This document shows positions 13,407 to 44,330 of a stretch of 64,000 bases of DNA, piece after piece (within the stretch, counting starts at the first letter, position 1; every line of letters begins with the position of its first letter). Source of the DNA: Agelas oroides (taxonomy: Eukaryota; Porifera; Demospongiae; Agelasida; Agelasidae); the NCBI GenBank assembly GCA_949130485.1, contig OX422188.1, forward strand, positions 2,255,722 to 2,319,721, read 5' to 3'. The position numbers were made by a program, and so were the translations under genes. The notes beneath the pieces are model-generated. The model was not told the origin of the DNA. It ran no database searches and worked only from the letters and a program-made list of their open reading frames with translations.

Positions 13407-13413
13407 GCCGAAC

Positions 13414-17571: not shown

Positions 17572-20500
17572 TCAAACAAATGCACCATGGGACTGCTTTA
17601 AATGTGCATAGCACTTCTGGTCCGAATCAAAGTATGCCAGACACACCCAGCAAATACTTGTACGACAATGCACACAGTACACATTATTACATCCGTCGAT
17701 CTTTTCAATAGGTGCTGTACACTTGGGGCAACGTTTACGCATTCTTGGATTTTCACGAAGCCATTCCTCAAATTCTTTTTCACCGTGCTTTCCAGCTTGA
17801 TACATAGCACAGGTCAGGCCATCATGATACTGATCATGACATTTGGTGCAGAGGTGGATGCCACAATGACCGCAGATAAATCGTTTTCCATCGTCTGAGG
17901 CAACATATACCATGTCACAGTTTGGTGTTGGGCAACTACGTACAGCATGCTTGTTTGCCATCATGTAGCTTTTCACAGATGTTGCAGCAAGTTGCTGACA
18001 GGTGATATTTGTTCTCTGGAAGAGATTTACACAGTCTTGCCATACGAATGGGTGAGAGCATTCAGCACACTGTAGGGGAAATGTTATTGCATTCGGTGCA
18101 ACTTGCAACTGAATGCAGTCAAGGCAGTATGCATGACCACAATATTCCAGTCGAAAGATACTTTGGGGGTTATCAACTGGGGTGAAACAAACACAGCACT
18201 CAACCTCATCCTCTTCTCTGTTTGGCATAATGTCTCCAGCATAGCTTTTGATTACCTGGTTAATGTATGTGTGAGCTTCACTAGTGGCAAATACAGTGAG
18301 GGTGTGCCTGCGAGGGTCCAGTACAGCCGTTGTGATACCTTCCCGACTTGTCAAGCCCTGTAGATCTAGGCCAAACACGTTTATCAGGTGCTTCATTAGA
18401 CCTGGTGGCTTTTCAGGAGCTTTGAGCGGGTAACACTGTGATTCATGGCCCTCAAGTTTACAGAGTTTTCCATTCAGTTCAACTTTGGCACGAGTTACAT
18501 TTGCTTCTGTTCCATATATTTTGATGGTCATGGTTCTCCAATCAGCAAATATGTAGGTTGATGTAGATGACTGTATCTCATCTAACTCTTGGTGACAATT
18601 GTGAGCAAACAGGAATTGACGAAGGATTTGAGATCGACATTCAGTCACATCTGGTTGTATGACTGTGTTTAGAACATTCTTAGCAACTGCAAATGTCTGG
18701 ACATCATCAGACATTATCTGAATAATGGTGTTTCTCCATTTGTCCTGTTTTTCAGTGATCTTTACTGATGTCCCATACCTATTTTGGAGTTCTGCCTTCA
18801 ACTCTTCAACAGCATCTTTGATGACTTCATACACTGCAGGGATGTAGCGAACAGAAGAAACAAGTGCAAGTTTGACATCCAAGGGTTTTCCTCCAATTGC
18901 TTGTGGTCTTAAACCATCAAGATTTTTTTGGCCTTCATCTGGATCTTGAAAGGAGGCTGTTGCCCGAAAAGTCTTGTAATAATTCATCGGAGGATGTACT
19001 TCCAAGCTGTATTTTCCCTGCGTAGCGTCAATAAGGCCTTCCAGCTGCTTTTTGATAGCATCTAGTTGTTCAGGGGTAGTCTCAAATGACTTTTCGAAAC
19101 CTAGATGCACAGTAAAATTTACATCAGGTACACGTGACTCGACAGCAGCTTTAAGCGCCTGTTCTGTCACTTGTTGTCCAACATTTGTAACAAAAAGCTG
19201 AATTTTGTCTTCATATTTTGAAGGATGGATCTTCAGATATGATCCAAACACAACCAGAGGATAATGAAGTAGGCTCCCCTTGGCAATCTCCAAATCTTCT
19301 GGATGGTTAAAGTCAATAAAGGCAAAGTTCTTACGCTGTCGTCGGCACCACTCAATTTTCAAAGTGAACTTTGCTCCTGCTTCTCCCCTATTGTGTTGCT
19401 CAATAAAGATGCCTTCTGGGAATTTCAGCAACCTTACTGCATTGACAGCATCATCAGGGTTGTAAAACGTAACAAGCAAACGACAATTCTTTTTTCCAAT
19501 TTTAGAATACTCTTTTACTATTTCTCCATACTGAGAAAGGGAGGTCATTGTTGCTCCCAACCAGTCTCCATCTGGTGGGCCTTTTACCACAACTGTCCGG
19601 TAATGGTATGGCATCAGCACATGCTGGACAGACCCTCCCAAACCCATCAAAAGCTTTACGTCATCATCTTGTTTTGTCAGTCCCATTTCATGCTGCTCCT
19701 TCTTCAGGTTCTGCCTTACATAACTCAAATGCCCTTCTATCACTTGCAATGCTTGAGCATGATAGCTGCTGTGTGAAAACACTGTAATTACTCCCTTGTC
19801 ATATTCGTGCTGTAGTGTATATGGAGTCTCCCCACACACGTCCTGCAGTTGCTTTTTGATTTCTGGTAAGGAGTTTTTATTGGTTACTCTTCTGAAGACA
19901 TACTGCCCAATGTTTGTAATACTTGTTGGGGAAACCATAAACTTGCTGAGACTCTCAGATGGATGACATGCAAGCTTCCCTGAGTCAATAGCCTCTTGTA
20001 TCCACTCTTCTCTCACTGGCACAACTTGGAGAAGAAAGTGCTGGGTTGTCTTCAATGTTTTCTCATAGATGACACACTTAGGAATCAAGTTGAGTTGACG
20101 AAGTGCTGAGCCTGGAAAAATGACAAGTGGCTCTCCAGGCATGCTTTCTGTCATGTATCCAACTCTCTCATGGCCTAGAAATATACTAATATTTCGGATA
20201 AAGGTATCAAAATAGAGTTTTGGTAGTTTGTCTTCAGCATTCTCCAGGTTTGCTACTCTGGGGGGCAGTTGGATAGAAAGATGGTGAGATAGGGTGTCTC
20301 GGAGCTCTTTAAGTGTTTCTTCAACTATCCTCATGCTCTTGGCATTGACATAGTTGTCCACACACCACTTTGTTCGCTGGTCTTTTTTTTGCTGCACCCA
20401 ATTTTGATAAGCAGAAAGATACGTCATTTGGTCACCTGCTGGATGACAAAACTGCGTTTTTTTCTTGTCACTTTCACTTTTCATTTCATCCGTTCCCCCT

Positions 20501-23500
20501 CGGAAGAATACATTGCCGGCAAGACTGGATATTGCTACTGCCATTGCAGCTTCCAGACCAATACCTGCATCAATGCCATCAAGAAGCACTTTTGAAAGCT
20601 GTGGATCAAGAGGTAGGGCAGCTATCTTCTTGCCTAACTCTGTAAGTTGACCATCTTTTACTGCCCCAAGAAACGTGAGTGTTTCTGCTGCTGCTGTTAG
20701 TGCTACAGGATCAGGCTGCTCAACAAAATCAAATGCCAAAATATCTGTGATGCCAAACTCATACAATCTTAGTATAGCATGAGCTAGCTGAACACGCAGT
20801 ATCTCTGGTAGCATCCTGTCGGGCATATTGTCATTGTAGAGGTCCTGGCTGTACAGCCGGTAGCACTTACCTTCACTTGTCCTACCTGCTCTCCCTTTCC
20901 TTTGCTCAGCTGAGCTCCTGCTGATAATTCGTACCTCTAGAGAATTCATGCTCCTCTTTGGGTCAAAACAAAGTTCTTTGGCCAAACCGCTATCAACAAT
21001 GTACTTCACACCAGGAATTGTAACTGATGTCTCTGCCACATTGGTGGCAAAAATAATCTTTCTTTTGCCTTCAAAATTATGAAAAACCTTTTGCTGCTCT
21101 TGTGGTTGCAGTTTGCCATGTAGAGGAAGTACTACTGCTCTGTCATCCATTTTTCCACTAAGAATTTGGCAGGCACGCTCAGTTTCAGCTGGAGATGTCA
21201 GAAAGATTAGGATGTCTCCTTCATTTTCGTCTCTGTGGATTTGCTGTGTAACATTTATCGCCTCAGATACATAGTCCATTGTGATGGGTGAGGTTGGAAC
21301 ATCTGCAGTTGTAGATGACTGGGGGTCAAGATGCGCACTCCATATTACATCTACTGGAAATGTTCTTCCAGACACCTTCACTATGGGGCAATTACCACCA
21401 AAGTGTCGATTAAAGAGAGCAGGATCAATGGTGGCTGAGGTGATGACAACTCTCAGATCCTGTCGTCTCAGAAGAAGCTTCTTTATAAAGGATAAAAGCA
21501 GGTCGGTATGCAAACTTCTCTCATGGGCTTCATCAACAATGATACAAGAATACTTTGACAATTCTTGGTCAGCAATGAACTCATTCAGTAATGCATGGTC
21601 CGTCAGATACAGAACTTTTGTATGCTTGCTGTACTTGCCAGACATCCCCACCTTGTATCCAAGAACTGTACCAAGTTTTACACCCATTTCAATGCTCACA
21701 TGAGCTGCCAGTGTAGTAGCAGCAACTTTCCTGGGTTGGGTGCATGCAATGAGACCCGGCTCTGCAAATCCAGCATCATATAAATATTGCACAATTTGTG
21801 TGCTCTTCCCTGATCCAGTTTCTCCAACTAGAATTGTAACCTGGTTTGCTTGGACTGTTTCCACGATCTCTCTTCTTTTAGCATATATGGGAAGTGCTTT
21901 CAAGAATCGACTGCACTCTCTGCCAAAACCTTTTCTCATAGTGCTAACCCTTTCCTCAAGTGGTTTTCTTGTAACAGGTGCTGAAGATTCAAGGTGCTTC
22001 AAGTCTTCCAAAAGGGTCTTGCAATACTCTGAAAACTCATTCTCTTGAAGTTGACATTCTTCAAGTTGCTGTTGCACTACATCTCTCTGCCCTTTCAGTC
22101 TTTCGTATGTGTGTAAAGGACAACGCTTTGGGAGTTGTAAAGATTTCTGTTTTGCCATGAGCTGTTCAAGCTTTTCTTTGTGCTGTGCTAAGAACTGTGT
22201 TCTTTTCATTTCAATACTGCCTCTGAAATTCTCAATCTCAGAGACTAGGGGCACAGTAGAATGTTCTGTGAGGGAAACACTAAAATCCTTGCTTCTTGTG
22301 TCCAAAATCTTTAGGGCCTTCTTGGCTTTTTTAAAGCTTGTGAACTGCACTTGACATGTGAAACCATCTTTCTGTTTTTTAAACTCATTGATGCAAAACC
22401 CTCCTGCTTTGGAATGAAGTTGTTTTGTGAGGTATTCATGGAAGATCTTCGCTGTGATGGCATGATCTGGTATGCAGAAGTAGAGAATTGTTGCTTTTGC
22501 TTTTGTGTCTGGTTGTGTAGGATGCTGCACATCTACAGACTGCACTGGGGCAGCAGGTGATACAAAACCTGCTGGATATTGCACCTGGATATTTAATTGC
22601 CTTCCTCTGAGGACTGTGTTTTGTAATTTTCCACATGTGGCCTCCGCCTCTTTCAGGGTGTAGAAGTTGACAAATGCATATGGAGGATTACCAAAAAGTT
22701 CAACGTTACATATCCTTCCATGGCATTCAAAAACTTTTTGGAGTTGCTGCCTATGAATTTTTTGTGGCAAATTCGTAACCTTTACTTTCACAATTTCATT
22801 GCTTGCAGATAATGGAGAGGGTAGAATAGCTGCTTGTGTGCATGATGAAGTCAATGGTTTGGACTCAGCTTCAAGTGGAGTGGGATTAAGTGAAGTTGGA
22901 TGAAGTAGAGTAGCAGATACAACTTGACCATTGAGTTTCTTGCCATCTATTGTGGTGAGTGCGGCATGAGCATCATGTGGAGTAGACAGCCTCAGTGTCA
23001 CTTGGGTGCTGCTTGGTCCAGTCTTCTGAAACATGCAACTTACAATGGGGACTCTTATCATGGCTCTGATTTTCTTCTCATCAATGAGAGGGTGTAGATT
23101 TTTCACTTGAATTGTATCAGAGAACTGAGGGACGATCTCTTGGAGTAAAAGAGAGGGTCCAGTGGCCCCCATAGTCACTTCTTGAGCATGGTCACTAGAC
23201 TTTTTTTTTGGTTGTAGATTTTCACTTTTCATGACACCATGCAGGTTAGGATCCACTTTGACTTTGCAAAAATCTCTGGAAGCACTACTTGAATCACTGA
23301 ACTTGGGCACTAGGACAACTTTGGATGTGCAAACACCAGCAGCCTGAGCTTTTTCTTGAACTGTCTTATCTTTCCAATAGCAAGAGGGATTTGTTGGGTT
23401 TTGAGACATACATTTAGGAGTGGGAACGTGAAATGGCCTTCCCTTTCTTGTCAAGGGTGCATTGGGTTGCTTTTTTCTTTTGCAAGGACTTGCTGGTCCT

Positions 23501-23880
23501 GTAGCTCTCTTCTTTTCAGAGTGTTTTGTTTTATGTTTGAATGGCCGGACAACTAACCTGTGATCACCAAGCAGGGTGGTACCATTCAGTTTTTGAATGG
23601 CTTCTTGCGCATGCTTAGTTGAGGTAAATGAAACATACCCACAACCCTTTGGCTTGTGGTTGTCACTGTGGTAGAACATTGTAACCTTGCTGACAGACTC
23701 ATCAAAGCCATGCTTAGCAAAATGCTCTCTGATGTATTTCCCAGTAAAATATGAGGGTAGTTTTGATCCAAAGTACACCTTACAGGATGGCTCTCCTCCA
23801 GTTGAACTAGCTTCACTCAGAGTGCTACAAATTGATTCAGTGTCTGATTCATCCTCGCTCTCATCTCTGGCTGCCATCAT
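17572..23880 (-). CDS. RRM-DEAH helicase-RBR ubiquitin ligase fusion (copy 1)
   Basis: A single open frame of 2,102 codons. RRM-like modules lie at about 33-114 (KVYFGSKL, KGCGYVSF), 255-330 and 362-438 (VKVTNLP, YAFVNF). A coiled, charged linker follows (550-660). The helicase core is complete: GETGSGKST at 686-694, TQPRK at 714-718, DEAH at 783-786, SAT at 815-817, FATNVAETSVTIP at 944-956 and QRKGRAGR at 993-1000. HA2-like (about 1027-1130) and OB-like (1222-1295) regions come next, then RRM/KH-like modules (1425-1880). The C-terminus is RING1 (C1895-C1941), IBR (C1983-C2024) and RING2 (C2051-C2080). The presumed thioester cysteine is C2064 in GCNNVYC, where a His found in most RBR ligases is Asn. 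It should unwind or remodel RNA and transfer ubiquitin. The closest architecture I know is plant DEAH11/DEAH12. The frame lacks introns, but TAATTTAG at about 23893 looks like a 3' splice site, implying a 5' UTR intron. Target RNA and ubiquitination substrate are unknown. Confidence 0.93.
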   Translation of the reverse strand: MMAARDESEDESDTESICSTLSEASSTGGEPSCKVYFGSKLPSYFTGKYIREHFAKHGFDESVSKVTMFYHSDNHKPKGCGYVSFTSTKHAQEAIQKLNGTTLLGDHRLVVRPFKHKTKHSEKKRATGPASPCKRKKQPNAPLTRKGRPFHVPTPKCMSQNPTNPSCYWKDKTVQEKAQAAGVCTSKVVLVPKFSDSSSASRDFCKVKVDPNLHGVMKSENLQPKKKSSDHAQEVTMGATGPSLLLQEIVPQFSDTIQVKNLHPLIDEKKIRAMIRVPIVSCMFQKTGPSSTQVTLRLSTPHDAHAALTTIDGKKLNGQVVSATLLHPTSLNPTPLEAESKPLTSSCTQAAILPSPLSASNEIVKVKVTNLPQKIHRQQLQKVFECHGRICNVELFGNPPYAFVNFYTLKEAEATCGKLQNTVLRGRQLNIQVQYPAGFVSPAAPVQSVDVQHPTQPDTKAKATILYFCIPDHAITAKIFHEYLTKQLHSKAGGFCINEFKKQKDGFTCQVQFTSFKKAKKALKILDTRSKDFSVSLTEHSTVPLVSEIENFRGSIEMKRTQFLAQHKEKLEQLMAKQKSLQLPKRCPLHTYERLKGQRDVVQQQLEECQLQENEFSEYCKTLLEDLKHLESSAPVTRKPLEERVSTMRKGFGRECSRFLKALPIYAKRREIVETVQANQVTILVGETGSGKSTQIVQYLYDAGFAEPGLIACTQPRKVAATTLAAHVSIEMGVKLGTVLGYKVGMSGKYSKHTKVLYLTDHALLNEFIADQELSKYSCIIVDEAHERSLHTDLLLSFIKKLLLRRQDLRVVITSATIDPALFNRHFGGNCPIVKVSGRTFPVDVIWSAHLDPQSSTTADVPTSPITMDYVSEAINVTQQIHRDENEGDILIFLTSPAETERACQILSGKMDDRAVVLPLHGKLQPQEQQKVFHNFEGKRKIIFATNVAETSVTIPGVKYIVDSGLAKELCFDPKRSMNSLEVRIISRSSAEQRKGRAGRTSEGKCYRLYSQDLYNDNMPDRMLPEILRVQLAHAILRLYEFGITDILAFDFVEQPDPVALTAAAETLTFLGAVKDGQLTELGKKIAALPLDPQLSKVLLDGIDAGIGLEAAMAVAISSLAGNVFFRGGTDEMKSESDKKKTQFCHPAGDQMTYLSAYQNWVQQKKDQRTKWCVDNYVNAKSMRIVEETLKELRDTLSHHLSIQLPPRVANLENAEDKLPKLYFDTFIRNISIFLGHERVGYMTESMPGEPLVIFPGSALRQLNLIPKCVIYEKTLKTTQHFLLQVVPVREEWIQEAIDSGKLACHPSESLSKFMVSPTSITNIGQYVFRRVTNKNSLPEIKKQLQDVCGETPYTLQHEYDKGVITVFSHSSYHAQALQVIEGHLSYVRQNLKKEQHEMGLTKQDDDVKLLMGLGGSVQHVLMPYHYRTVVVKGPPDGDWLGATMTSLSQYGEIVKEYSKIGKKNCRLLVTFYNPDDAVNAVRLLKFPEGIFIEQHNRGEAGAKFTLKIEWCRRQRKNFAFIDFNHPEDLEIAKGSLLHYPLVVFGSYLKIHPSKYEDKIQLFVTNVGQQVTEQALKAAVESRVPDVNFTVHLGFEKSFETTPEQLDAIKKQLEGLIDATQGKYSLEVHPPMNYYKTFRATASFQDPDEGQKNLDGLRPQAIGGKPLDVKLALVSSVRYIPAVYEVIKDAVEELKAELQNRYGTSVKITEKQDKWRNTIIQIMSDDVQTFAVAKNVLNTVIQPDVTECRSQILRQFLFAHNCHQELDEIQSSTSTYIFADWRTMTIKIYGTEANVTRAKVELNGKLCKLEGHESQCYPLKAPEKPPGLMKHLINVFGLDLQGLTSREGITTAVLDPRRHTLTVFATSEAHTYINQVIKSYAGDIMPNREEDEVECCVCFTPVDNPQSIFRLEYCGHAYCLDCIQLQVAPNAITFPLQCAECSHPFVWQDCVNLFQRTNITCQQLAATSVKSYMMANKHAVRSCPTPNCDMVYVASDDGKRFICGHCGIHLCTKCHDQYHDGLTCAMYQAGKHGEKEFEEWLRENPRMRKRCPKCTAPIEKIDGCNNVYCVHCRTSICWVCLAYFDSDQKCYAHLKQSHGAFV

Positions 23881-24156
23881 TCCTCAGGATCGCTAAATTA
23901 ACAGATAAGACAATATCTCAATGCAACACATTAATCATGGAACTGAATTCAAATTACACCTCAAGATGCATAATAAAGGACTGATTCACATAAAAAACAT
24001 GGTATGTACACCTAATATGTGAATAAAACTTTCATTCATCAACGAGCTTGGGATGCTACACCACCCTTATACCTGCTTAAGAAAGGTTTCCTTCATCTAT
24101 ATGATATCACATACGTAAAATGATGCTGTACATTGAGTGTGCTATAAGTAGGCTCC

Positions 24157-24601
24157 CGCACATTATGCTTCATTGCTATCCTATTATGCTATTCCTTTAT
24201 TCCTGATAATTTTACCAATTATGCTCAGTTATCTTCCCCATTATGCCCAATATGTACACAGCGTTTACGAGACAGTTCTGATTGCGTAGGAGTCTTGAGT
24301 CGGTCCAGCAATGATACAGTCGACTCGGAAGATGTGGACTCCGCCTCCTTCGGCATACTACCCGAGCTCTGATATGAGCTGTTGCAGAGTCAGACGTTGC
24401 GATCCTCGTGCTAGTAGTACCTAGCGTGAGCGGTATATATGTATACTACAGTTACTTTACACGTGGGCATTGTTTAGTATTCTTACTAGGTTCAAAGGTT
24501 AAATAATTACGTAAGTGCGTTGCGCTTACCTATTATGCTCAAGGTTGTGCTTATGCTAATAGCTGCCTATTGTGCTTTAAATTATGCTGGCATAATGTGC
24601 G
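24157..24601. mobile_element. 445-bp element with 12-bp inverted ends
   Basis: Starts CGCACATTATGC and ends with its exact inverse, GCATAATGTGCG. TTATGC or its inverse recurs many times in the outer 100 bp on each side, like subterminal repeats. No target duplication was found. Confidence 0.5.
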
Positions 24602-25929
24602 CATGTCTAGCTATAAGGTGCTAAAGTTACAATCGTAAAGGGGGCCTATTCATCCCTGCCATTTTCTCAAAATATCATAATACTTCTTAACTCTCCTACG
24701 TTAATGTATAAGATCTCCGTTCACAATTGCTTCTTTTAATTTAACTGCTACTTCTGGAACGACCATGTGCATTGTGCAACAAGTATTCATATGTAAAATA
24801 CTTTACATGTTTGTTACCTCCCAAAATAAAAGGAAGAGTTTCAAAAAGTAGCTTGTTAAGCTTGTGATGTCACAAGCTTGTGCACTGCAATGGGGAGATA
24901 TTCTCTGTTCAAGTAATTAGGGGGATGTGGGTTATGTCATCCAGAGGATTGACAGTGCATGGTGGCCTTATGCTAGGCTGCTCATTTAGCACTGGGTAGG
25001 CCATTTTTCTCTCTTGCATTAAGCTCAATTTCTAGCTGAACATGTGGCTAAGAGACTATTGGCAAAACGTTTCAGGTAAGTGTTGTGAGCATCATGAGGT
25101 GCATTTTTTCACTTGTGGCAAGAGGGTTTTTTTATATTGTCTGCTGAGTCATCTTAAAACTGTATGTACTCACCATAAATATATATATGGGGGTTAACCC
25201 TGAGGTCAACCCTAATGCACCACTGAGATAAAATTATTGCATGCTGCTTGCTGCACTGAGCATGCATAAAGTCGAACAAAGGGCATGCACTTCAGTTGCG
25301 CACCCAGTTGGCCTTGATCTTGGTTTAGCTTCGTTTACCCTTACACATTTCCCAATGTCTATATGGGGGTAGGGTTTGGTACATCCCAGTACTTCCTACA
25401 TCTACATTTAATGTGATTGGTCTGGGTTGGACAGGGGTAAAGCCCAGAGATGGGGTTCTACTCCCAAAAGCAACACTCTCGTATGATTTGCAAGCATCCT
25501 CTAGGCCACAACCTAACTTCAGGGGGCATGCTCCCCGGGGAATTTTTGTGTCCATAAGAAGTGATCTGAGGCCACTTTCAACTAAATACACATTCATGTT
25601 GGATAAAATTTGGGGTATTTCATGAGTTGGTCTGTCTGCACCCACAAAAGTAAAATTATGTGTGCTATGCGAGTTAGTATGCAGTGTGCACATTGTGAGG
25701 TTGTGAATTGCAGATACCGGTACTTGGTTTTTCGTGAAATATCTCTGCAAAAACTTCAATGTGTACACACATACACTAGCTCAGACTAATTTTTGGTCAT
25801 CCCGGGAGCCTTGCTAGTAAACTCATCAGCTTCACTCAACACTTAGTGACATGAAGAGTGCATCAATGACATGATGTACACATAAGTTATGCACTCTAGC
25901 TGGAAACATGGGGGAGGCTGTGCCCCCCA
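24602..25929. other. no gene seen
   Basis: The open frame at 25325-25768 (minus) matches no family I know. A small palindrome, AAGCTTGTGATGTCACAAGCTT, cut into two arms, is at about 24859-24880. Confidence 0.4.
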
Positions 25930-27175
25930 GCCGCTCGGCGCACCCTCCCCATTAAACATGCCAGCTTGGTATCTGCTTCGGCTGGATCCCTGGCAGCTCA
26001 ACCATAAGTACTCGAACTCAGCCACTGAGATGCTGAATGACTCGGTAGCTCAGTTGGTTAGAGCATGGCAGGCCATTTGCCAGGTCGCGGGTTTGAGTCC
26101 CTCCCTGGGTCACTGTCATTTTTCCCCCTCTTTCTTTTCCATCTTTATTTCTCACCTTTCTTTCTCTCTGACTTTGACTTGGGTTTTTAAGGTCTGACTG
26201 TCAGGTCTGGAGCATGTTTAAAAATCTGAGCATTCATGCGCCTTGCGCTTCACACTCGCCGCACCCTCCCCGTCGAATATGCCAGATTGGTATCCGCTTC
26301 GGCTGGATCCCCAGCAGCTCGGCCTTAAGTACTCGAACTCAGCCACTGAGTTGCCGAGTGACTCAGTAGCTCAGTTTGTTAGAGCATGGCAGGCCATTTG
26401 CCAGGTCGTGGGTTCGAGTCCCTCCCTGAGTCGCTGTTATTTATTTCCCCTCTTTCTCTCACCTTTCTTTCTCTCTGACTTTGACTTGGGTTTAATGTCT
26501 GACTGTCAGGTCTGGAGCACGTTTAAAAACCTGAGCATTCATGCGCTTCGCGCTCGCCGCACCCTTTCCATCGAACATGCCAGCTTGGTATCCACTTTGG
26601 CTGGATCCCAGGCAGCTCAGCGTACTCGAACTCAGCCACTGAGTTGCCGAGTGACTCGGTAGTTCAGTTGGTTAGAGCATGGCAGGCCATTTGCCAGGTC
26701 GCGGGTTCGAGTCCCTCCCTGAGTCACTTTGTCTTTTTCCCCTCTTTATTTTCTCATCTTTATTCCTCACCTTTTTCTCTGACTTTGACTTAGGTTAAGG
26801 TCTGACTGTCAGGGCTGGAGCATGTTAATATCTGAGCCTCATGTGCCTCGCGCTTTGCATTCGCCGCACCCTCCCCATCAAACATGTCAGCTTGGTATCC
26901 ACTTCGGCTGGATCCCTGGCAGCTCAACCTTAAGTACTCGAATTCAGCCACTGAGTTGCCGAGTGACTCGGTAGCTCAGTTGGTTAGAGCATGGCAGGCC
27001 ATTTGCCAGGTCGCGGGTTCAAGTCACTCCCTGTGTCACTCTGTCTTTTTCCCCTCTTTATTTTCTCGTCTTTATTCCTCCCCTTTTTCTCTGACTTTGA
27101 CCTAGGTTAAGGTCTGACTGTCAGGTCTGGAGCATGTTAAAATCTGAGCCTTCATGCGCCTCGCACTTCAGTTCT
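25930..27175 (+). repeat. four tandem copies of a ~300-bp tRNA-derived repeat (SINE-like)
   Basis: tRNA-like cores start at 26039, 26360, 26653 and 26965, so the periods are 321, 293 and 312 bp. Each has an A box (TAGCTCAGTTGGTTAGAGC), a B box (GGTTCGAGTCC) and a pairing acceptor stem (GACTCGG with CTGAGTC). The anticodon arm TGGCA-GGCCATT-TGCCA has G instead of U before the anticodon, so these are not normal tRNAs. Body and pyrimidine-rich tail (CTCTGACTTTGACTTGG, GGTCTGACTGTCAGG) repeat too. Pol III transcription from the boxes is plausible. Confidence 0.8.
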
Positions 27176-27278
27176 CGCACTGTCTGTGTGAAGAACCATC
27201 CAGTGCTTCCAACACGAAACAAAACTGTTTTGTTGTAACTCACAAATCAAATCTAACTAGATGGCAATATGTACTTGG

Positions 27279-27895: not shown

Positions 27896-28453
27896 ATGGT
27901 TCCATATCCTTATAATTATGCATGTGGCCAACATCTTTGTACAGAAGCCAGTAAGCTCACACTACACTGTTTATTTCATGCTTACATCAGGATTTTCATA
28001 TCAAACTGAACGTAACTCACGAACAGAGACACACTGATTACTTAATTTTGCTTGCATATGTGTGGACTACACATATTCCCTATGGTTTGACCTAAGGACA
28101 TTTGGATTCCCTACTTCCACTGTGAGTATATGAATATCTAACACTGTGGCAATGATTTAGATTCACGTTATCTAGGATTGAGTGGGTTTTGACTTACTAC
28201 AGTAACAGTCTTGAACTAACTCTACTGCATTTGAGAACACAGCCTGCTTTGCCATATATTCTCCACTTCACCCTTGTATCTATAGTAACAAGTGGGTATT
28301 ATTTTCCATAATTATTATACTGACAGGAAGTTGTAGATTCTGTTCCTTTTTACCAAGTTGTAAATTCTGTTTCAAATTTGTAAAAAACGATATTTCTGTA
28401 AAATACTTGTATGTTTACTAATAACAAGGACCAATCAGGTTGGAGAGTACAAC

Positions 28454-30139: not shown

Positions 30140-30181
30140 AGGAGCTTATGAACCGCTGCTTTGCGGTGCTCACAAGCTCCT
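30140..30181. repeat. 42-bp hairpin
   Basis: AGGAGCTTATGAACCGC pairs with GCGGTGCTCACAAGCTCCT, with small mismatches. Confidence 0.65.
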
Positions 30182-35074: not shown

Positions 35075-35079
35075 CCTTA

Positions 35080-35375
35080 CAAGGGGTAGTCACTTATATG
35101 TCGCCTGTAGAAGCGTTTGCGACCGTGATCAAGTTTTTTGATCGGCAAAAAGTGTGCTTGATCGCTTGATCGGCCCCTTCTGAGGCTCTTGATCGCTTGA
35201 TTTTCAAGGGTCAAAGGTCAAATTGCAGCCGCGCGTTCTTGATTGTTGATTTTTAGCAGTTCGTAGGTCACCTTGATCCCTTGATCGGCCCCCCAAAAGG
35301 GCTTTGATCGCTTGATTCAGTTTTGATCCCGGTCGCAAACGCTTCTACACGGGACATATAAGTGACTACCCCTTG
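35080..35375. mobile_element. 296-bp MITE with long inverted repeats
   Basis: Ends CAAGGGGTAGTCACTTATAT and ATATAAGTGACTACCCCTTG. Inverted similarity extends about 50 bp (AGAAGCGTTTGCGACC and GGTCGCAAACGCTTCT). Flanking CCTTA lies at 35075-35079 and 35376-35380. The inside repeats TTGATCGCTTGAT. Confidence 0.8.
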
Positions 35376-35776
35376 CCTTACGTGTGGCTGTTCAAGCTAA
35401 AACATTACCACTCATTCAGGACAAACAATGCATGCATGAAACACACTGAAATACGTTCTTTTGGTCGGGAAACCCTCTGTCTACCCAAGTAGACCGTTGA
35501 AGTCATTCACATAAAGAAATCTCCCAAACCTTTCCCCCTTTAGTGGTGCTATGTTCAGCAAACGATCCTGAACCTCCATTTTGCTAATCAATATGAGGGC
35601 CCCAAAACATGCCACCAAACCTTATGCTATGTAACCAACCTGAAAACGTCAAGAGATAAGGATTCCAGGAGGTAGAACGAACAGCTTTTTTTGGCACAGA
35701 CGAGAACGGCTACATTGGTCTCATGCTCAGACATCCGGGGCGCGGCCAAAATGAGTGCGTTGCGGAGTAATAGACC

Positions 35777-36027
35777 CAGAGGAGGTCGGACACGGTTGAA
35801 CTTTACTAATTAAAACGGCTGAGGTCACACTAATTGATCTTGGATATTGCTAGGTAGAAAGCTTTTTAGCTTTTTCTATGACTTGCCCCAGCCTTGAATC
35901 TTGATTTGAAAACTGGGGCCCCCCTCAGTAAAAGTCGAGCGAACCAGTCTGTTGAGATACGAAAAATCAATTAGTGTGACCTCAGCCATTTTAATTAGTA
36001 AAGTTCAACCGTGTCCGACCTCCTCTG
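35777..36027. mobile_element. 251-bp hAT-like MITE with 8-bp target duplication
   Basis: Ends CAGAGGAGGTCGGACACGG and its inverse, with arms of about 65 bp. The target duplication AATAGACC lies at 35769-35776 and 36028-36035. Confidence 0.88.
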
Positions 36028-36035
36028 AATAGACC

Positions 36036-37475
36036 GCCCCAAGACGATGAATCATCTCATATTATGCAGAGACAGCAAGTACAATTTTCCGTGAAATGCA
36101 GGGCCGCCGATACAGCCATAGTGCTTGTTTTACAATGTGTAAGCTAGGGGGTCTGGGCATCACATCCAAACAAAATTTTACTGAGGCACCCGCCGTAGAT
36201 ATTTCATCGTTGCCGATCACATGTGTTGCGGATCTGCGCCCGACTTGAATTATATTTACATGAGTTTAGCGTGAGACATACATCAATTTCGTGAGACTCA
36301 CGGAAAATCCGACTATTATGCCATATAGATCTACTGATACAGTTATTTCTAGCGCTGTTAGCCGGGGATTCTCCTAGTATACGAAAGGGAGGCACACAAT
36401 CCCATGTGGTACCGCCCTAATTGGTCATGTGATTTCCGGTGCAACTTGTACGGCCAAACCGTCAAGATCGGGCGTCTGGCACGGAACCATAAAACACTAC
36501 ATCCAACCTGCCAGATAGTAATGCCAAGTTTAACTAGTCAAATAGAGTCATGATGCATGCATTATTATAACTGATTAGCTAGTAGCTAAGTTGCCTAGCT
36601 ACGTCAGTCTCTCGGTGGACCTAGGTTAGACTCTTGCAGCATGGAACTAGCTAGATGACTTCTTTCAGCGTTAGTGCATGCGCATGACGTTATAATTATG
36701 TTCTTTATCAAAGTAGCCTGCATAAAGAATAAGGCTGATATTAGTTTGTTTTACTGGTTAAGTTGTTCAGTGACTGAAATTCAACCATGCAAGTTGATGC
36801 AAACCAGAACTGATTGTAAAATTTGACCAACCATACTTACAAAAAATTAACATCCTCATACCCAGGCTTCTAATCATGCATTAGTTTCTTGCAGTATGCC
36901 TGACAAGCACTGGAGTAAGAAAGACTGAGGCTAACAAAAATTGACTAGATACCAAAAAAATGACTACATACAACATGACAGCATTGAGGTCATGCATCTA
37001 TGTCTTCACGTGGGAGGATACGACAGGCAGATCTTGAATGAAGCTTCTGCACTTCTGCAAAGAGAAAAATAGAAACAGTTCCCTATCATTCAACTCCTGG
37101 ACGCTTGTATACCTAATAACAGGACACCATAGGATTAAGTTAGTTGAAAAGGGGTCTGATCCAAGCACAACCCAGCAGGATTGCCCACTGTGATGGTCAG
37201 GGCTAGCAGTTTATGTCTGGATCACCAAGAGTGTTCAGCCCATACCCCACAAGTAGGATACTGCGAACCACCAGCATTAGACCAGTCCAAAAGCGAAATC
37301 TGTCCTATAATTTGGACAGAAGATTCATGCACCAACTTTATAAGTCAAGGGACAGAAACATACAAAAACGTACAGAAAAGTGCATCAGCTGACCATATGT
37401 AAGCAATCTAAGAAATATCAAAAGCTACTCTGTCTGGTTACAACATACAACAAACCAGTTCAGCAAGACACATGC
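36036..37475. other. no gene seen
   Basis: No coding signal that I can support. Confidence 0.35.
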
Positions 37476-37583
37476 CACATGGTACAGGCACATGGTACCA
37501 TGCACATGGTACAGACACATGGTACAGGCACATGGTACAAGCATGCACATGGTACAGCCTAGGCACATGGTACAGCCACATGA
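37476..37583. repeat. minisatellite of CACATGGTACAG units at the duplication edge
   Basis: About seven copies of CACATGGTACAG with 1-6 bp spacers. The similarity between the 3' flanks of the two helicase genes stops here, so it marks the breakpoint side of the duplication. Confidence 0.75.
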
Positions 37584-37992
37584 TCTTTTGCTGATGCTAT
37601 CCTGAATTGCTCCTGAAATATTTTCTTGAAGTACCGGGCTTTTTAATATTCACTTACGTAGTAAAACGTTTTCACAAAACTTCCACTCCATTTTTGAGTT
37701 CCACACATGTATATATACATCAATTAGTTAACTAACAACAAAGTATACAAATTTTCACAGACTTGACATTAGTATTAAAACCATCCACACAAACTCGATA
37801 GTAATTTTTTGGTGCAAACAACAAAAATGGGAGATCTACTTATAAAGGTAAAAATCTGTGTAGATATCTAGCTAATAAATTTCTGTACAAACTGACAAAC
37901 TTTTGAATGGTGATATTACAACTACACAATTTAGGTCTCAGCACATACATTGGAAGACTACATACTACTTTCAAAGTGTACACAACCTAAAT

Positions 37993-40900
37993 TCAAAAAC
38001 ATCCTCCATGGGATTTTTGTAAATGAGCATAGCACTTCTGGCTGGAGTCAAAGAATTTCAGGCACACCCAGCAAATACTGGTATGACAATGCTTACAGTA
38101 CACATTATTGCATCCTGAAATCTTTTCAAGTGGTACTGTACACTTTGGGCAACGTTTTCGCTTTGCTGTATTCTTCTGAAGCCATTCTTCAACCTCTGGT
38201 TCAGCATGTCTTCCAGCTTGATACATGGCACAGGTCAGACCATCATGGTATTGAACATGACACTTGGTGCAGAGGTGGATGCCACAATGGCTACAAATAA
38301 ATCGTTTTCCATCATCTGACACAACATAAACCATGTCACAGTTTGGTGTTTGGCAACCGCGTACAGCATGCTTGTTTGCCATCATGTAGCTTTTTACAGA
38401 TGTTGCAGCGAGTTGCTGACAGGTGATATTTGTTCTCTGGAAGAGATTTACACAGTCTTGCCATACGAATGGGTGAGAGCATTCAGCACACTCTAGGGGA
38501 AATGTTATTGCATTTGGTGCAACTTGCAACTGAATGCAGTCAAGGCAGTATGCATGACCACAGTATTCTAGCCGAAAGACATTCTTGGGATTATCAACTG
38601 AGGTAAAACAGGCACAACAATTGATTTCATTCTCTTCTCCCTTTGGCATAACATCTTCAGCAGCATAGCCTTTGAGTATCTGGCTGATGAATATGTGAGC
38701 CTCATTGGTAGCAAATACATTGAGGGTATGCCTGCGAGGGTCTAATGCAGCTGCTGTGACACCTTCCTGACTTGTCAAACCCTGTAGATCTAGACCAAAC
38801 AGGGACATCAGGTGTTTCATTAAACCTGGTGGTTTTCCAGGAGCTTTCAGTTGGTAACACTTCGATTCATGGCCCTCGAGTTTACTGAGTTTTTCATTCA
38901 GTTCAACTTTGGCAAGAGTTACATTTGCTTCTGTTCCATATATTTTGATGGTCATGGTTCTCCGATCAGCAAATATGTAAGTTGATGTGGACGACTGTAT
39001 CTCATCTAACTCTTGGTGACAGTTGGGTGAAAGTAGAAATTGACGACATATTTCAGATTGACAATCAGTAACATTTGGTTGCATGACTGTGTTCAGTACA
39101 TTCTTAGCAACTGCAAATGTCTGGACATCATCAGAACTTATCTGAATAATAATGTTTCCCCACTTGTCCTGTTTCTCAGTGATCCTCACAGATGTCCCAT
39201 ACCTACTTTCAAGTTCTGCCTTCAACTCCATAATAGCATCTTTAATTACTTCATACACTGCAGGGGTGTAGCGAACAGAAGAATGAAGTGCAAGTTTGAC
39301 ATCCAATAGTTTTCCTCCAATTTCTTGTAGTCTTAAACCATCAAGAGTTTTTTGACCTTCATCTGGATCTTGAAAAGAGGCTATTGCTCGAAATGTCTTG
39401 TAAGAATTCATCGGAGGAATTACTTCCAAGTTGTACTTTCCTCTTGTGGCATGCTTTTCAATAAGGTTCACAAGTTGATTTTTTAAGGCAGCTAGTTGTT
39501 CAGGAGTAGTCTCAAATGACTTTTGAAAACCAAGATGCGCAGTGACAGTAACACCAGGAACACGTGCTTCAACAGCAGCTTTAAGTGCTTCCTCTGTCAC
39601 CTGTTGGCCGACATCCTCAACATAAAACTGCATTTTGTCTGGCTTATTTGAAGGACTGAACATCACCAGTGATCCAGATACTTCCAAATCGTTTTGAAAC
39701 AAATATCTCTTGGCAAATTCTAGATCCTCCAAGCAATTAAAGTCAATAAAGGCAAAGTTTTGACGTTTTCGTCGGCACCAATCAATTGTCAAAGTGAAAT
39801 TTGCTCCTGTATCTCCACTACTGTGTTGCAGGTATGGTTCAATTGTGATGCCCTCGGGAACTTGCAGTGATGTTACTGCATCAACAGCATCAACAGGGTT
39901 GCGGAATGTAACAAACAGAAGGCAATCTCGTTTTCTTAATTTGGAAACTTTCTTCTCCATTTCGCCATGCTGAGACAGGGATGTTAGCATCATCTCAAAC
40001 CAGTCTTCATCTGGTGGACCTTTGGTCATTACTGTCCGGTAATGGTATGGCATCAGTACATGCTGGATGGAACCTCCCAACCCCATCACAAGCCTGACAT
40101 TATCAGATTGTTTTGTCAATCCCATTTCATACTGGGTTTTCTTAAGGTTCTCCTTTACATTACTCAAATGTCCCTCTATCAGTTGCAACACTTGAGTATG
40201 GTAGCTGCTGTGTGCAAACACTGTTATTATTCCTTTGTCATATTCATGTTGTACTGTAAGTGGAGACTCATCACATACTTCCTGTAGTTGCCTTGTGATT
40301 TCTGGTAGTCCTTTGCGGAACTCTCTTAAGACACACTGCCCAATGTTGAAAATACTTGCTGGGGAAACCATGAACCTGCTAAGCCTGTCAGCTGGATGAC
40401 ATGCAAGTTTCCCTGAGTCAATAGCCTCTTGTATCCACTCTTCTTTCACTGGCACAACTTGGAGAAGGAAGTGCTGGGTTGTCTTCAGTGTTTTTTCGTA
40501 GACAACACACTTGGGAATCAAATTGAGTTGACAGAGTGCAGAGCCAGGAAATATGACAAGTGGCTCTCCAGTCATCCTTTCAGTGAGGTATCCTATTTTC
40601 TCGTGCCCCAGAAAGACACCAATGTTTCGGATAAAAGTATCAAAAAGGATTTTTGGCAGTTTAGCTTCAGCTTTCTCTAAACTTGCTACTCTGGGGGGCA
40701 GCTGGATGGAAAGATGCCAAGAGAGGATATCTTTGATCTCGTTCAGTGTTTCTTCAACCATCCTCATGCTCTTGGCATTGACATAGTTGTCCACACACCA
40801 CTTTGTTCGCTGGTCTCTTTTTTGCTGCACCCAATTCTGATAAACTAAAAGAGATGTCATTTGGTCACCTGCTGGATGACAAAACTGTGTTTTCTTTTTA

Positions 40901-43900
40901 TCACTTTCACTTTTCATTTCATCTGATCCCCCTCGAAAGAAAACATTGCCAGCAAGACTGGATATTGTTACTGCTACTGCTGCCTCCAGACCTACACCTG
41001 CATCAATGCCATCGAGAAGTATTTTTGCAAGCTGTGGTTCAAGGGGTAAGACAGCTATCTTCTTGCCCAAATCAGTGAGCTGATCTTTATGTATTGCCCC
41101 AAGAAATGTGAGTGTTTCTACTGCTGCTGTTAGTGCTACAGGATCAGGCTGCTCAACAAAATCAAATGCCAAAATATCAGTGATGCCAAATTCATACAAT
41201 TTTAGTATAGCATGAGCTAGCTGAACACGCAGTATCTCTGGTAGCATCCTGTCGGACATGGTATCATTGTAGAGGTCCTGACTATACAGCCGGTAGCACT
41301 TACCTTCACTTGTCCTACCTGCTCTCCCCTTCCTTTGCTCAGCTGAGCTCCTGCTGATAATTCGTACCTCTAGAGAATTCATGCTCCTCTTTGGGTCAAA
41401 ACAAAGTTCTTTGGCCAAACCGCTATCAACAATGTACTTCACACCAGGAATTGTAACTGATGTCTCTGCCACATTGGTGGCAAAAATGATCTTTCTTTTG
41501 CCATTAAATTTCTGAAAAACCTTTTGCTGCTCTTGCGGCTGCAGTTTGCCATGTAGAGGAAGTACTACTGCTCTATCATCCACCTTCCCACTAAGAATTT
41601 GGCATGCACGCTCAGTTTCAGCTGGAGATGTCAGAAAGATTAGGATGTCTCCTGCACTTTCTTCCATGTGGATTTGCTGTGTAACATTTATTGCCTCAGA
41701 TACATAGTCCATTGTGATGGGTGAGGTTGAAACATCTGCAGTTGTAGATGACTGGGGGTCAACATGAGCACTCCATATTACATCTACTGGAAATGTTCTT
41801 CCAGACACCTTCACTATGGGGCAATTACCACCAAAGTATCGATTAAAGAGAGCAGGATCAATGGTAGCTGAGGTGATGACAACTCTCAGATCCTGTCGTC
41901 TCGGAAGAAGCTTCTTTATAAAGGATAAAAGCAGGTCAGTATGCAAACTTCTCTCATGGGCTTCGTCAATGATGATACAAGAATACTTTGACAATTCTTG
42001 GTCAGCAATGAACTCATTCAGTAATGCATGGTCCGTCAGATATAGAACTTTTGTATGCTTGCTGTACTTGCCAGACATCCCCACCTTGTATCCAAGGACT
42101 GTACCAAGTTTTACTCCCATCTCAATGCTCACATGAGCTGCCAGTGTAGTAGCAGCAACTTTCCTGGGTTGGGTGCATGCAATGAGACCCTCCTCTGCCA
42201 ATCCAGCATCATATAAATATTGCACAATTTGTGTGCTCTTCCCTGATCCAGTTTCTCCAACTAGAATTGTAACCTGGTTTGCTTGGACTGTTTCCACGAT
42301 CACTCTTCTTTTTGCATATATGGGAAGTGCTTTCAAGAATCGACCACACTCTCTGCCGAAATCTTTTCTCATAGTGGCAACCCTTTCATTAATTGGTTTT
42401 CTTGCTGCAGGGGCTGAGTATTGGAGGTGCTTTAAGCTTTTCAGAAGTGTCTTGCAGAATTCTGAAAACTCATTCTCTTGGTGTCGGCACTCCTCAATCT
42501 GTTGTTGCACTACAGCTCTTTGCTCAGTCAGCAATTCAAAAAGGTCCTCCAAAGTACACTTCTTTGGAAGGGATCTCTGTTGTGCAATTAGCCGATCTAG
42601 TTTTTCTTTGTGCTTAGCTAAGTACTGTCTTTTCTTTGTTTCAATACTGCTTTTGAAATTCTTGATCTCAGAGACTACGGGTACAGCAGAGTATTCTGTG
42701 AGGGAAACACTAAAATCATTGCTGCTTGAGTTCAAAATTTTCAGGGCCTTCTTGGCTTTGTTAATGCTTGAAAATTGCACTTGGCATTCTGTTCTATTTT
42801 TCTGTCTTTTTAGTTCAAAAATGCGAAATTCTCCTGTCTTTGCCTGAAGCTGGCTCTTGAGGTATTCATGGAAAGCTCTCTTACTGATAGGATTTAGCAA
42901 TCTTTTGCTAGTATGATCTGGTATGCAAAAATACAGAGTTGTTGCTTTTGCCTTTTCATTTGCCTGTGTAGGATGCTGCACTTCAGTAGGCTGCACTTCA
43001 GTAGGCTGCACTTGGGCAGAGGCTTGTACAATACCTGCTGGGTATTGCACTTGTATGTGTAGTTGTCTTCCCCGGTAGACCGTGTTTTGCAATTTTGCAC
43101 ACATAGTCTCAGCCTCTTCCAGAGTGTGGAAGCTGACAAATGCATATGGAGGATTTGCTTTATCAAAAAGCTCAACAGCAAATGTCCTTCCATGCTGTTC
43201 GAAAACTTGTTTCAGTGCCTTCTTGTGGATCTTATGAGGCAAATTTGTAACTCTTGCTTTCACAATTTCATTGTTTTCAGATAATGAGCAGGCTGGACTA
43301 GTTGCTGGGTATGATGGAGCTAATGCAAGAGGAGTGGGGTGAAGTGAAGTTTGATGAAGCTGAGTAGCAAAAACAACTTTTCTATTATCTGTAGCATCAG
43401 GTTGACTAGACGCTCCCTGATTACCACTTGGTTTTGTCATCTGAAACGCACAACTCTCGAATGGGACTGGTATTGTGGTCTTCATTTCTTCCTTGCTGAT
43501 GAGAGGGCGAAGAAGTTTCCCTTGATTCATATCAGATGACTGAGGGTTGATGTCTTGGAGTGATGGAGAAACTTTTGCGGCCTCTACAGTCACTTTCTGA
43601 GTATGGTAACTGGATATTCTTTGTGATTGTGGATTACTGTTTATGGAGCCATGTAGTTCAGGCTTGACTCTGACTTTGCAGGAGGTTCCAGATGTTGGAC
43701 TTGAATCAGTGAGCTCAGGCACTAGGACACATTGGGACTCACAAACACTTGCAGCCTGAGAGCTACTTTGAAGTGTTTTGCCTTTCCAATTACAAGGCTG
43801 TTTTCCCAAAGGTATACTATCACTTACTGGTTGTGATTTACCTTGAGGAGTAGCAATGTTAACTGTTTTTCCTTTTCTTGTTGAATGGGCCTTGAGTTGC

Positions 43901-44307
43901 CCTGTTCTTTCGCAAGGACTTGCTGGTCCTGTAGCTGTCTTCTTCTCAGAGGGATTCTGTTTAAATGTGTAAGGCCGGACAACTAACCTGTGATTGCCAC
44001 GCAGGTAGGAGCCATTCAGTTTCTGAATTGCTTCATGGGCACATTTCTCTGAAGTAAATGAGACATATCCACAACCTTTTGGCTTGTGAGTAACACTGTT
44101 ATGAAACATTGTAATTTTGGTGACAGAGTCTTCAAAGCCATGCTTAGCAAAATGTTTTCTGATATATGTTCTTGTAAAAAAAGGCTTTGATCTAAAATAC
44201 ACCTTAGGAGATGACTCTTCTCCAGCTGAGCTAGCTTCACTCAGAGTACTGAACACTGATTCAGTGTCTGATTCATCCTCACTGTCATCTCTTGATATGG
44301 CTGCCAT
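37993..44307 (-). CDS. RRM-DEAH helicase-RBR ubiquitin ligase fusion (copy 2)
   Basis: A single open frame of 2,104 codons, paralogous to the gene at 17572-23880 and in the same orientation. RRM-like modules lie at about 35-112 (KVYFRSK, KGCGYVSF) and 347-425 (ARVTNLP, YAFVSF). The RRM seen at 255-330 of copy 1 is degraded here by a deletion around residues 296-310. A short repeat, QPTEVQPTEVQ, is at about 434-444. The helicase motifs are intact (GETGSGKST at 684-692, DEAH about two residues earlier than in copy 1, QRKGRAGR), as are HA2, the OB-like region and the later RNA-binding-like modules. The RING-IBR-RING is complete, with CPKC at 2053 and the presumed catalytic Cys at 2066 in GCNNVYC, again with Asn in place of His. 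The helicase core is almost identical in DNA to copy 1, while the N-terminus and middle have diverged. CTTATGTTTAG at about 44324 looks like a 3' splice site just before the start, as in copy 1. Both copies being open over 2,100 codons argues that both are functional. Confidence 0.93.
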   Translation of the reverse strand: MAAISRDDSEDESDTESVFSTLSEASSAGEESSPKVYFRSKPFFTRTYIRKHFAKHGFEDSVTKITMFHNSVTHKPKGCGYVSFTSEKCAHEAIQKLNGSYLRGNHRLVVRPYTFKQNPSEKKTATGPASPCERTGQLKAHSTRKGKTVNIATPQGKSQPVSDSIPLGKQPCNWKGKTLQSSSQAASVCESQCVLVPELTDSSPTSGTSCKVRVKPELHGSINSNPQSQRISSYHTQKVTVEAAKVSPSLQDINPQSSDMNQGKLLRPLISKEEMKTTIPVPFESCAFQMTKPSGNQGASSQPDATDNRKVVFATQLHQTSLHPTPLALAPSYPATSPACSLSENNEIVKARVTNLPHKIHKKALKQVFEQHGRTFAVELFDKANPPYAFVSFHTLEEAETMCAKLQNTVYRGRQLHIQVQYPAGIVQASAQVQPTEVQPTEVQHPTQANEKAKATTLYFCIPDHTSKRLLNPISKRAFHEYLKSQLQAKTGEFRIFELKRQKNRTECQVQFSSINKAKKALKILNSSSNDFSVSLTEYSAVPVVSEIKNFKSSIETKKRQYLAKHKEKLDRLIAQQRSLPKKCTLEDLFELLTEQRAVVQQQIEECRHQENEFSEFCKTLLKSLKHLQYSAPAARKPINERVATMRKDFGRECGRFLKALPIYAKRRVIVETVQANQVTILVGETGSGKSTQIVQYLYDAGLAEEGLIACTQPRKVAATTLAAHVSIEMGVKLGTVLGYKVGMSGKYSKHTKVLYLTDHALLNEFIADQELSKYSCIIIDEAHERSLHTDLLLSFIKKLLPRRQDLRVVITSATIDPALFNRYFGGNCPIVKVSGRTFPVDVIWSAHVDPQSSTTADVSTSPITMDYVSEAINVTQQIHMEESAGDILIFLTSPAETERACQILSGKVDDRAVVLPLHGKLQPQEQQKVFQKFNGKRKIIFATNVAETSVTIPGVKYIVDSGLAKELCFDPKRSMNSLEVRIISRSSAEQRKGRAGRTSEGKCYRLYSQDLYNDTMSDRMLPEILRVQLAHAILKLYEFGITDILAFDFVEQPDPVALTAAVETLTFLGAIHKDQLTDLGKKIAVLPLEPQLAKILLDGIDAGVGLEAAVAVTISSLAGNVFFRGGSDEMKSESDKKKTQFCHPAGDQMTSLLVYQNWVQQKRDQRTKWCVDNYVNAKSMRMVEETLNEIKDILSWHLSIQLPPRVASLEKAEAKLPKILFDTFIRNIGVFLGHEKIGYLTERMTGEPLVIFPGSALCQLNLIPKCVVYEKTLKTTQHFLLQVVPVKEEWIQEAIDSGKLACHPADRLSRFMVSPASIFNIGQCVLREFRKGLPEITRQLQEVCDESPLTVQHEYDKGIITVFAHSSYHTQVLQLIEGHLSNVKENLKKTQYEMGLTKQSDNVRLVMGLGGSIQHVLMPYHYRTVMTKGPPDEDWFEMMLTSLSQHGEMEKKVSKLRKRDCLLFVTFRNPVDAVDAVTSLQVPEGITIEPYLQHSSGDTGANFTLTIDWCRRKRQNFAFIDFNCLEDLEFAKRYLFQNDLEVSGSLVMFSPSNKPDKMQFYVEDVGQQVTEEALKAAVEARVPGVTVTAHLGFQKSFETTPEQLAALKNQLVNLIEKHATRGKYNLEVIPPMNSYKTFRAIASFQDPDEGQKTLDGLRLQEIGGKLLDVKLALHSSVRYTPAVYEVIKDAIMELKAELESRYGTSVRITEKQDKWGNIIIQISSDDVQTFAVAKNVLNTVMQPNVTDCQSEICRQFLLSPNCHQELDEIQSSTSTYIFADRRTMTIKIYGTEANVTLAKVELNEKLSKLEGHESKCYQLKAPGKPPGLMKHLMSLFGLDLQGLTSQEGVTAAALDPRRHTLNVFATNEAHIFISQILKGYAAEDVMPKGEENEINCCACFTSVDNPKNVFRLEYCGHAYCLDCIQLQVAPNAITFPLECAECSHPFVWQDCVNLFQRTNITCQQLAATSVKSYMMANKHAVRGCQTPNCDMVYVVSDDGKRFICSHCGIHLCTKCHVQYHDGLTCAMYQAGRHAEPEVEEWLQKNTAKRKRCPKCTVPLEKISGCNNVYCKHCHTSICWVCLKFFDSSQKCYAHLQKSHGGCF

Positions 44308-44330
44308 CAGTTTTCAGGAATTGCTAAACA

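Follow-up and report, generated by a model that had tools for sequence, protein, structure and literature searches.

What kind of protein is encoded by two very large genes that each join RNA-binding domains, a DEAH helicase and a RING-IBR-RING (RBR) ubiquitin ligase, and does this combination represent a new fusion? The genes lie in a stretch of 64,000 nucleotides (hereafter the window) of the sponge Agelas oroides, on contig OX422188.1, designated C6:2255722-2319721 in our search of the genome (259 Mb in 141 contigs), which is that of an animal since Wnt genes are present (8 matches). Taken together, the data are best explained, with good though not full confidence, if these genes encode animal RBR ligases of the Helicase (Plant I, DEAH11/12-type) subfamily, organised in a tandem array of three and plausibly acting in RNA-directed ubiquitination; DEAH11 and DEAH12 are the Arabidopsis members of this subfamily. 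The fusion type itself is not new; it is already known, ancient and little studied. What goes beyond its published description is a PARP14-like RRM module at the N-terminus and a helicase core that appears to have been homogenised by gene conversion.

Each of the two genes in the window, copy A and copy B, forms one frame in genomic DNA that is uninterrupted from end to end, and their products are 76% identical in aligned columns. The probability of 2102 open codons by chance is ~10^-57, with codons drawn at the local base composition, which rules out a chance open frame. The initial annotation had located both genes of about 2,100 residues correctly, and they lie on the minus strand; its count of two must be raised to three, as a complete third copy, copy C, is present ~12 kb to the left of the window (C6:2237072-2243374). 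Copy C is 95% identical to copy A and shares its domain set apart from KH_DEAH11_1st, which is missing from its listing at an E value of 0.01. No internal stop is found in any of the three frames, all of which exceed 2,100 codons, and when the whole genome was searched with the KH_DEAH11 model, nothing beyond these copies was recovered (all 3 candidates were scored). The array is a tandem triplet, not a pair. Five pieces of the region 3' of copy A (window 11156-17404, ~6 kb) recur 3' of copy C with 75-91% identity, and no Pfam family was found at E 0.01 in two frames of this flank of copy C. Since these downstream pieces are common to A and C, the two copies derive from a later segmental duplication and copy B is older. 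The nucleotide match between copies A and B extends from ~20 nt upstream of the start codon to ~250 nt beyond the stop. On the minus strand, a TTTAG sequence ends 12 nt before the start codon of copy A (window 23893-23897) and 16 nt before that of copy B (window 44324-44328); because the latter comes after a pyrimidine-rich stretch, a spliced 5' untranslated exon may lie ahead of copy B. Long plus-strand frames opposite the helicase (for example, 42137-42847) were not taken as genes, similar frames being present opposite both copies.

The Pfam models RRM_1, DEAD, Helicase_C, HA2_N, KH_DEAH11, KH_DEAH11_2nd and IBR scored over their cut-offs in both proteins encoded in the window, where families were listed at E values up to 10 (24 of 24 for copy A, the best 25 of 26 for copy B; the HMMER filters discard most weak matches). 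For HA2_C only copy A reached the cut-off, and in both copies OB_NTP_bind and KH_DEAH11_1st fell below theirs. The domain order is shared: RRM_1 in the first 440 residues, a DEAD-Helicase_C-HA2_N-HA2_C-OB region at ~660-1300, KH models at 1675-1881 and a C-terminal IBR. Using generally known patterns for the DEAH (superfamily 2) helicases, motifs I, Ia, Ib, II (DEAH), III, IV, V and VI were all found, motif III (ITSAT) by eye in copies A and B, and the motif strings searched are identical in all three copies. The best 60 of 127 matches of the copy A helicase in the PDB are headed by an entry that bears only the name putative pre-mRNA splicing factor (E 1.2e-132), followed by PRP22 (7.6e-128) and DHX8 (4.3e-127). 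NCBIfam returned generic helicase and RRM models only, all below cut-offs, and PADLOC three weak helicase matches (best E 4.8e-05). In the C-terminal part, every copy matches the patterns for RING1 and IBR, and RING2 was identified by eye and by alignment to ARIH1, the closest solved structure, which aligns from RING1 through RING2 including the catalytic cysteine (E 1.2e-12; C2064 in copy A). The claim that all helicase motifs and a complete RBR reside in one chain is thus upheld by Pfam matches, motif strings, the ARIH1 alignment and the single open frame. As judged from sequence, each copy combines in one chain domains of RNA-binding type (RRM and KH), a DEAH helicase with all its motifs and an RBR with its catalytic cysteine, and is under purifying selection. 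A tree of RBR units comprised nine rows: the three copies, human ARIH1 and the own-genome IBR loci L012, L013, L017, L020 and L025; of the nine own-genome loci opened, L014, L021, L028 and L029 were left out as no single frame spans the whole unit. The three copies form one clade, which groups with L013 (95/97); the connecting branch is very long, and this placement is little informative.

A region of ~740 residues that includes KH domains and was absent from the earlier description separates HA2 from the RBR (741 aa in copy A). Here the DEAH11-named KH models PF24471 and PF24641 score over their cut-offs in all three copies, a position between helicase and RBR that would itself be a defining feature of the subfamily. 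Two further subfamily features are also present, namely a RING1-IBR-RING2 unit and DEAD/DEAH, Helicase_C and HA2 upstream of it in one chain. The "Helicase" (Plant I, DEAH11/12) subfamily has this same succession of helicase, HA2 and RBR (PMC2904391, PMC3087547, PMC3904995), and in soybean HELRP1/2 the DEAD, Helicase_C and HA2 domains lie ~750 residues ahead of the RBR (PMC3904995). Based on domain order, the spacing of ~740-750 residues and the DEAH11-named KH domains, membership in this subfamily is likely, and the comparison with plant DEAH11/DEAH12 made at the outset was apt, given where these KH domains sit. Three RBR subfamilies are common to plants and animals, the Helicase subfamily among them (PMC3087547), and the surveys by Marin describe the Helicase subfamily in both groups, with losses in multiple animal lineages (PMC2904391, PMC3087547). 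It is ancient because it is present in both, and an animal member is not the surprise for which it had been taken. In the open-access literature we found no functional study of DEAH11/12, no paper joining DEAH12 with an RRM, no work combining IBR, DEAH RNA helicase, RRM, E3 ubiquitin and invertebrate, and no fitting title joining PARP14, RRM, DEAH and RBR. Viral contigs scanned with the full protein and with a KH-RBR alignment gave 4 and 79 pattern-matching stretches, respectively, with 0 relatives by tblastn at this sensitivity.

The initial annotation had pointed to added RRMs, and RRM_1 is indeed over cut-off in both proteins, although unevenly so: four stretches are recognised in copy A and two in copy B, whose middle RRM carries deletions. 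When the genome was searched with residues 1-460 of copy A, nine of the 19 candidates, all of them scored, matched at an E value of 0.001 or lower; three of these are the copies themselves, and the remaining six all lie on contig C19. Four of the six fall within one 667-aa frame (C19:6228464-6230464), adjoined on the same strand by an exon-size frame and by a frame of 1491 aa that encodes Macro, WWE and PARP domains and has PARP14 as its closest protein in the PDB (E 5e-45). We infer that the three frames constitute one PARP14-like gene interrupted by introns. Across 133 aa, the acidic tail and RRM1 of copy A share 44% identity with the N-terminus of the PARP14-like protein, and the next two RRMs are 31% identical over 194 residues, with their order preserved. 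The fifth match is within a frame of 1110 aa, and strand, position and length indicate that a PARP match falls in this frame as well; this locus and that of the sixth match (6186404) are presumably PARP14-like as well. Since the genome contains at least 101 RRM matches, module matches included (150 of 198 candidates scored), and those to the module outside the copies are all on C19, the likeness goes beyond a general similarity among RRMs. It does not extend to the KH half, for which no homology to the KH half of the PARP14-like protein of the same genome was detected (best E 3.6). PARP matches are clustered in large frames at C19:6049188-6224129, with RRM matches in several of the same frames, and one gene scanned is PARP14-like; several PARP14 paralogs in sponges have already been published (PMC13224862).

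The order of domains makes RNA-guided ubiquitination plausible. The RRM and KH arrays would pick and hold an RNA, the ATP-driven DEAH motor would pull on, remodel or strip the complex of RNA and protein, and the RBR at the C-terminus, carrying ubiquitin as a thioester on Cys2064, would mark proteins on the bound RNA, with substrate choice made by RNA binding. A link between ubiquitination and RNA metabolism was reportedly proposed by Lucas, Arnau and Marin in 2006. Because the RRM module is common with a PARP14-like gene, a stress or antiviral RNA is suggested as the setting rather than splicing; this shared module is the sole new support for the antiviral-sensing idea raised in the initial annotation, which stays conjectural.

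Compatible with RNA-directed ubiquitination, and possible though doubtful, is a more specific arrangement in which the proteins work with PARP14-like ADP-ribosyltransferases much as DTX3L does in vertebrates, the shared RRMs bringing both enzymes to the same RNA. All six module matches outside the copies are in or beside PARP-domain frames, against the much larger number of RRM matches genome-wide, and the E3 ligase DTX3L shares an RRM-KH architecture with PARP14 and PARP9 (PMC10810221, PMC13224862). However, common domains do not demonstrate a common pathway, the KH/RBR half is without a match to the PARP14-like KH half, other domains were scanned in one of the three C19 genes, and the sixth match lies ~5 kb upstream of another PARP frame, on the same strand and not inside it. 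Somewhat less probable still, as a whole, is the broadest form of this idea, according to which, within this lineage of animals, a DEAH11-type helicase-ligase took on, or gave, the RRM module of antiviral ADP-ribosyltransferases of the PARP14 type. The triplicated helicase-RBR genes and clustered PARP14-like genes would then form a paired system by which one and the same set of RNA-protein complexes, foreign or stress-related, receives both ubiquitin and ADP-ribose. Such a system would be the equivalent, in early animals, of PARP14 with DTX3L/PARP9, and in it front ends diversify and conversion keeps the motor uniform. The three-copy array and its PARP14-like module thereby lead to a concrete hypothesis, RNA-guided ubiquitination beside ADP-ribosylation, for innate immunity outside vertebrates.

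Several results weigh against the assignment to DEAH11/12-type ligases with RNA-directed activity. The KH model KH_DEAH11_1st (PF24638) reaches E values of 0.036 in copy A and 0.0013 in copy B and is not listed at E 0.01 in copy C. Structure prediction with AlphaFold (two jobs, three sequences each) was poor, with mean predicted local distance difference test (pLDDT) scores of 38.9 and 49.9. Residues 1425-1680 have a predicted secondary structure resembling RRM-type repeats and weak profile matches to RRMs (PUB1, E 0.0059; nucleolin, E 0.011), whereas with Foldseek no match reached an E value of 0.001 (0 matches) and the best 50 listed include no RRM protein; extra RRMs are therefore not claimed in this segment. 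Finally, two residues after the catalytic cysteine all three copies carry Asn where ARIH1 has His, so the catalytic strength of the RBR is uncertain. This substitution, together with an Arg in copy C in place of the Gly preceding the cysteine, would fit a view of the RBR as a scaffold or weak ligase that merely binds ubiquitin or an E2, with the helicase as the working part. We regard this as improbable, since the zinc-ligand residues and catalytic cysteine are invariant across the three copies and the ratio of non-synonymous to synonymous substitution (dN/dS) between A and B is 0.17-0.28 in the windows covering the RBR. Moreover, the His after the catalytic cysteine is not universal among RBRs, and RNF144-type RBRs are without it and yet active.

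That a Prp22-like helicase and an Ariadne-like RBR were fused independently in animals, merely resembling plant DEAH11/12, would accord with the separate best matches of the two parts among solved structures, Prp22/DHX8 for the helicase and ARIH1 for the RBR. We nonetheless judge it very unlikely, as the intervening KH domains match DEAH11-named Pfam models (two over cut-off, one weak), the spacing is near that of the soybean proteins (PMC3904995) and the Marin surveys report a single Helicase subfamily across animals and plants (PMC2904391, PMC3087547). One ancient fusion is favoured because KH domains of the DEAH11 type lie between helicase and RBR.

Whole-frame dN/dS is 0.24 for A-C, 0.34 for A-B and 0.35 for C-B, and for A-B it is below 1 in all 22 windows of 100 codons. 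Together with frames devoid of stops, these values indicate that the copies are kept by selection, and functionless retrocopies or decaying duplicates, which three intronless coding regions might evoke next to an immunoglobulin-like gene at the right end of the window that looks by eye to be split into short exons, are made very improbable by the same evidence. A dN/dS of 2.10 in one A-C window was not accepted as positive selection, the synonymous distance there being only 0.015. This distance varies markedly along the genes. Between A and B it is 0.057-0.139 in four windows (residues 670-1069) versus 0.270-0.774 in the other 18; the C-B trough is less sharp (0.029-0.201 versus 0.210-0.766 elsewhere), its upper end meeting the lowest of the other windows (0.210). 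Between A and C it is 0.164-0.252 in four windows at 870-1269, compared with 0.014-0.139 in 17 others and 0.413 in one. As A-C distance is raised where A-B distance is low, or just beside, the pattern fits sequence brought in from copy B, and nucleotide identity between A and B jumps from 0.79 to 0.95 near residue 650. The simplest reading of these sequences is that the helicase core has been homogenised by gene conversion, with the RNA-binding front end and linker left to diverge. This claim rests mainly on the synonymous-distance windows; a run-length shuffle is weaker and assumes exchangeable codons. The longest run was 8 codons for A-B (aa 946-992) and 9 for C-B (aa 1110-1138, just outside the core), each reached in 0 of 2000 shuffles, and 44 codons for A-C (aa 1527-1591), reached in 1 of 2000. 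The copies offer a natural contrast between the motor, in which conversion appears to maintain uniformity, and the RNA-binding front end, which can diverge freely.

Table. Coordinates of copies A and B and of their domains in the window
Feature	Position	Strand	Evidence
Copy A, intronless coding frame, RRM / DEAH helicase / KH / RBR, 2102 aa	17572..23880	-	open frame, Pfam, purifying selection
Copy A RRM1, aa 40-105	23566..23763	-	Pfam RRM_1; translation checked
Copy A RRM-A, aa ~247-330 (limits by homology), eroded in copy B	22891..23142	-	homology
Copy A RRM-B, aa 363-435, weak RRM_PARP14_3 match under cut-off	22576..22794	-	Pfam, homology
Copy A DEAH helicase core, HA2 and OB region, aa 661-1298	19987..21900	-	PDB matches, motifs
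Copy A stretch where identity with copy B is raised, probably by gene conversion, aa 650-1050	20731..21933	-	dS windows, identity step
Copy A KH_DEAH11 domains, aa 1675-1881	18238..18858	-	PF24641 and PF24471 over cut-off, PF24638 weak (E 0.036)
Copy A RING1-IBR-RING2, aa 1895-2098	17587..18198	-	Pfam, ARIH1 alignment, patterns
Copy A codon of presumed catalytic cysteine C2064 (GCNNVYC)	17689..17691	-	ARIH1 alignment; codon checked
Copy B, intronless coding frame, architecture as copy A, 2104 aa	37993..44307	-	open frame, Pfam, selection analysis
Copy B RRM1 (C6:2299714-2299896)	43993..44175	-	genome RRM search
Copy B RRM-B, aa 353-417	43057..43251	-	Pfam, genome RRM search
Copy B DEAH helicase core, HA2 and OB region, aa 654-1294	40426..42348	-	Pfam, motifs
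Copy B KH_DEAH11 domains, aa 1676-1877	38677..39282	-	Pfam
Copy B RING1-IBR-RING2, aa 1897-2100	38008..38619	-	Pfam, motif patterns

Other features were observed in the window and elsewhere in the genome. Between copies A and B, window positions 25932-27170 hold about four tandem units of 312 bp, in which two places score as tRNA-Trp with ARAGORN and one as tRNA with Rfam; the units are probably a tRNA-derived repeat rather than tRNA genes. A fragment resembling reverse transcriptase, with a frame ending in LYADDILL, is present at 49922-50353 and is by eye a retroelement remnant. The long frames at 54024-54779 were rejected as genes and considered repeat artefacts of a minisatellite with units of ~51-59 bp (159-bp higher unit) that is open in several frames on both strands. 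Within an apparent immunoglobulin-like exon, a 204-bp unit occurs twice with 100% identity (58904-59312), reflecting either a very recent duplication or an assembly artefact. Elsewhere in the genome, C16:1386-1494 kb (L037-L043) contains an array of at least six large genes, each with a first frame running into a DEAH helicase start and then a helicase-matching second frame. The first frames are 809-895 aa long in the four not cut by the locus end and start with MGVKGLL in the five with a visible start; in the one scanned, XPG_I_2 matched weakly, below cut-off (E 7.6e-4). The second frames are 1295-3326 aa with helicase matches, and the one scanned has Helicase_C. This array looks like a tandem family of fusions between an XPG-like nuclease and a DEAH helicase.

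In comparison with known systems, the sponge proteins resemble Prp22/DHX8 in the helicase core, HA2 and OB regions, but differ from them at the N-terminus and in the added KH and RBR parts. With ARIH1 (HHARI) they share RING1-IBR-RING2 and its catalytic cysteine, whereas the Asn for His after this cysteine sets them apart and the Ariadne domain is not among the Pfam families listed. The likeness to PARP14 (RRM-KH-macro-WWE-PARP) concerns the N-terminal RRM module, as measured above against the PARP14-like gene of the same genome, while none of the macro, WWE and PARP catalytic domains is among the families listed for copies A and B at E values up to 10. DTX3L (RRM-KH-RING-DTC) is an E3 ligase with an N-terminal part like that of PARP14 and PARP9, and at full length it binds single-stranded RNA (PMC10810221). 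Here the likeness is one of kind, an E3 ligase sharing an RRM/KH architecture with PARP14; in contrast, the sponge proteins have an RBR instead of RING-DTC, plus a helicase, and DTC is likewise not among the families listed. The closest correspondence is with the Helicase (Plant I) RBRs, which have DEAD, Helicase_C and HA2, then a similar interval, then a C-terminal RBR, and for which the Pfam models matched by the sponge KH domains are named. The sponge genes differ from these in being three intronless tandem copies, in that RBD_DEAH11 is not among the Pfam families listed for copy A or B, and in an N-terminal RRM module with an acidic SDTES tail that is related to a PARP14-like gene.

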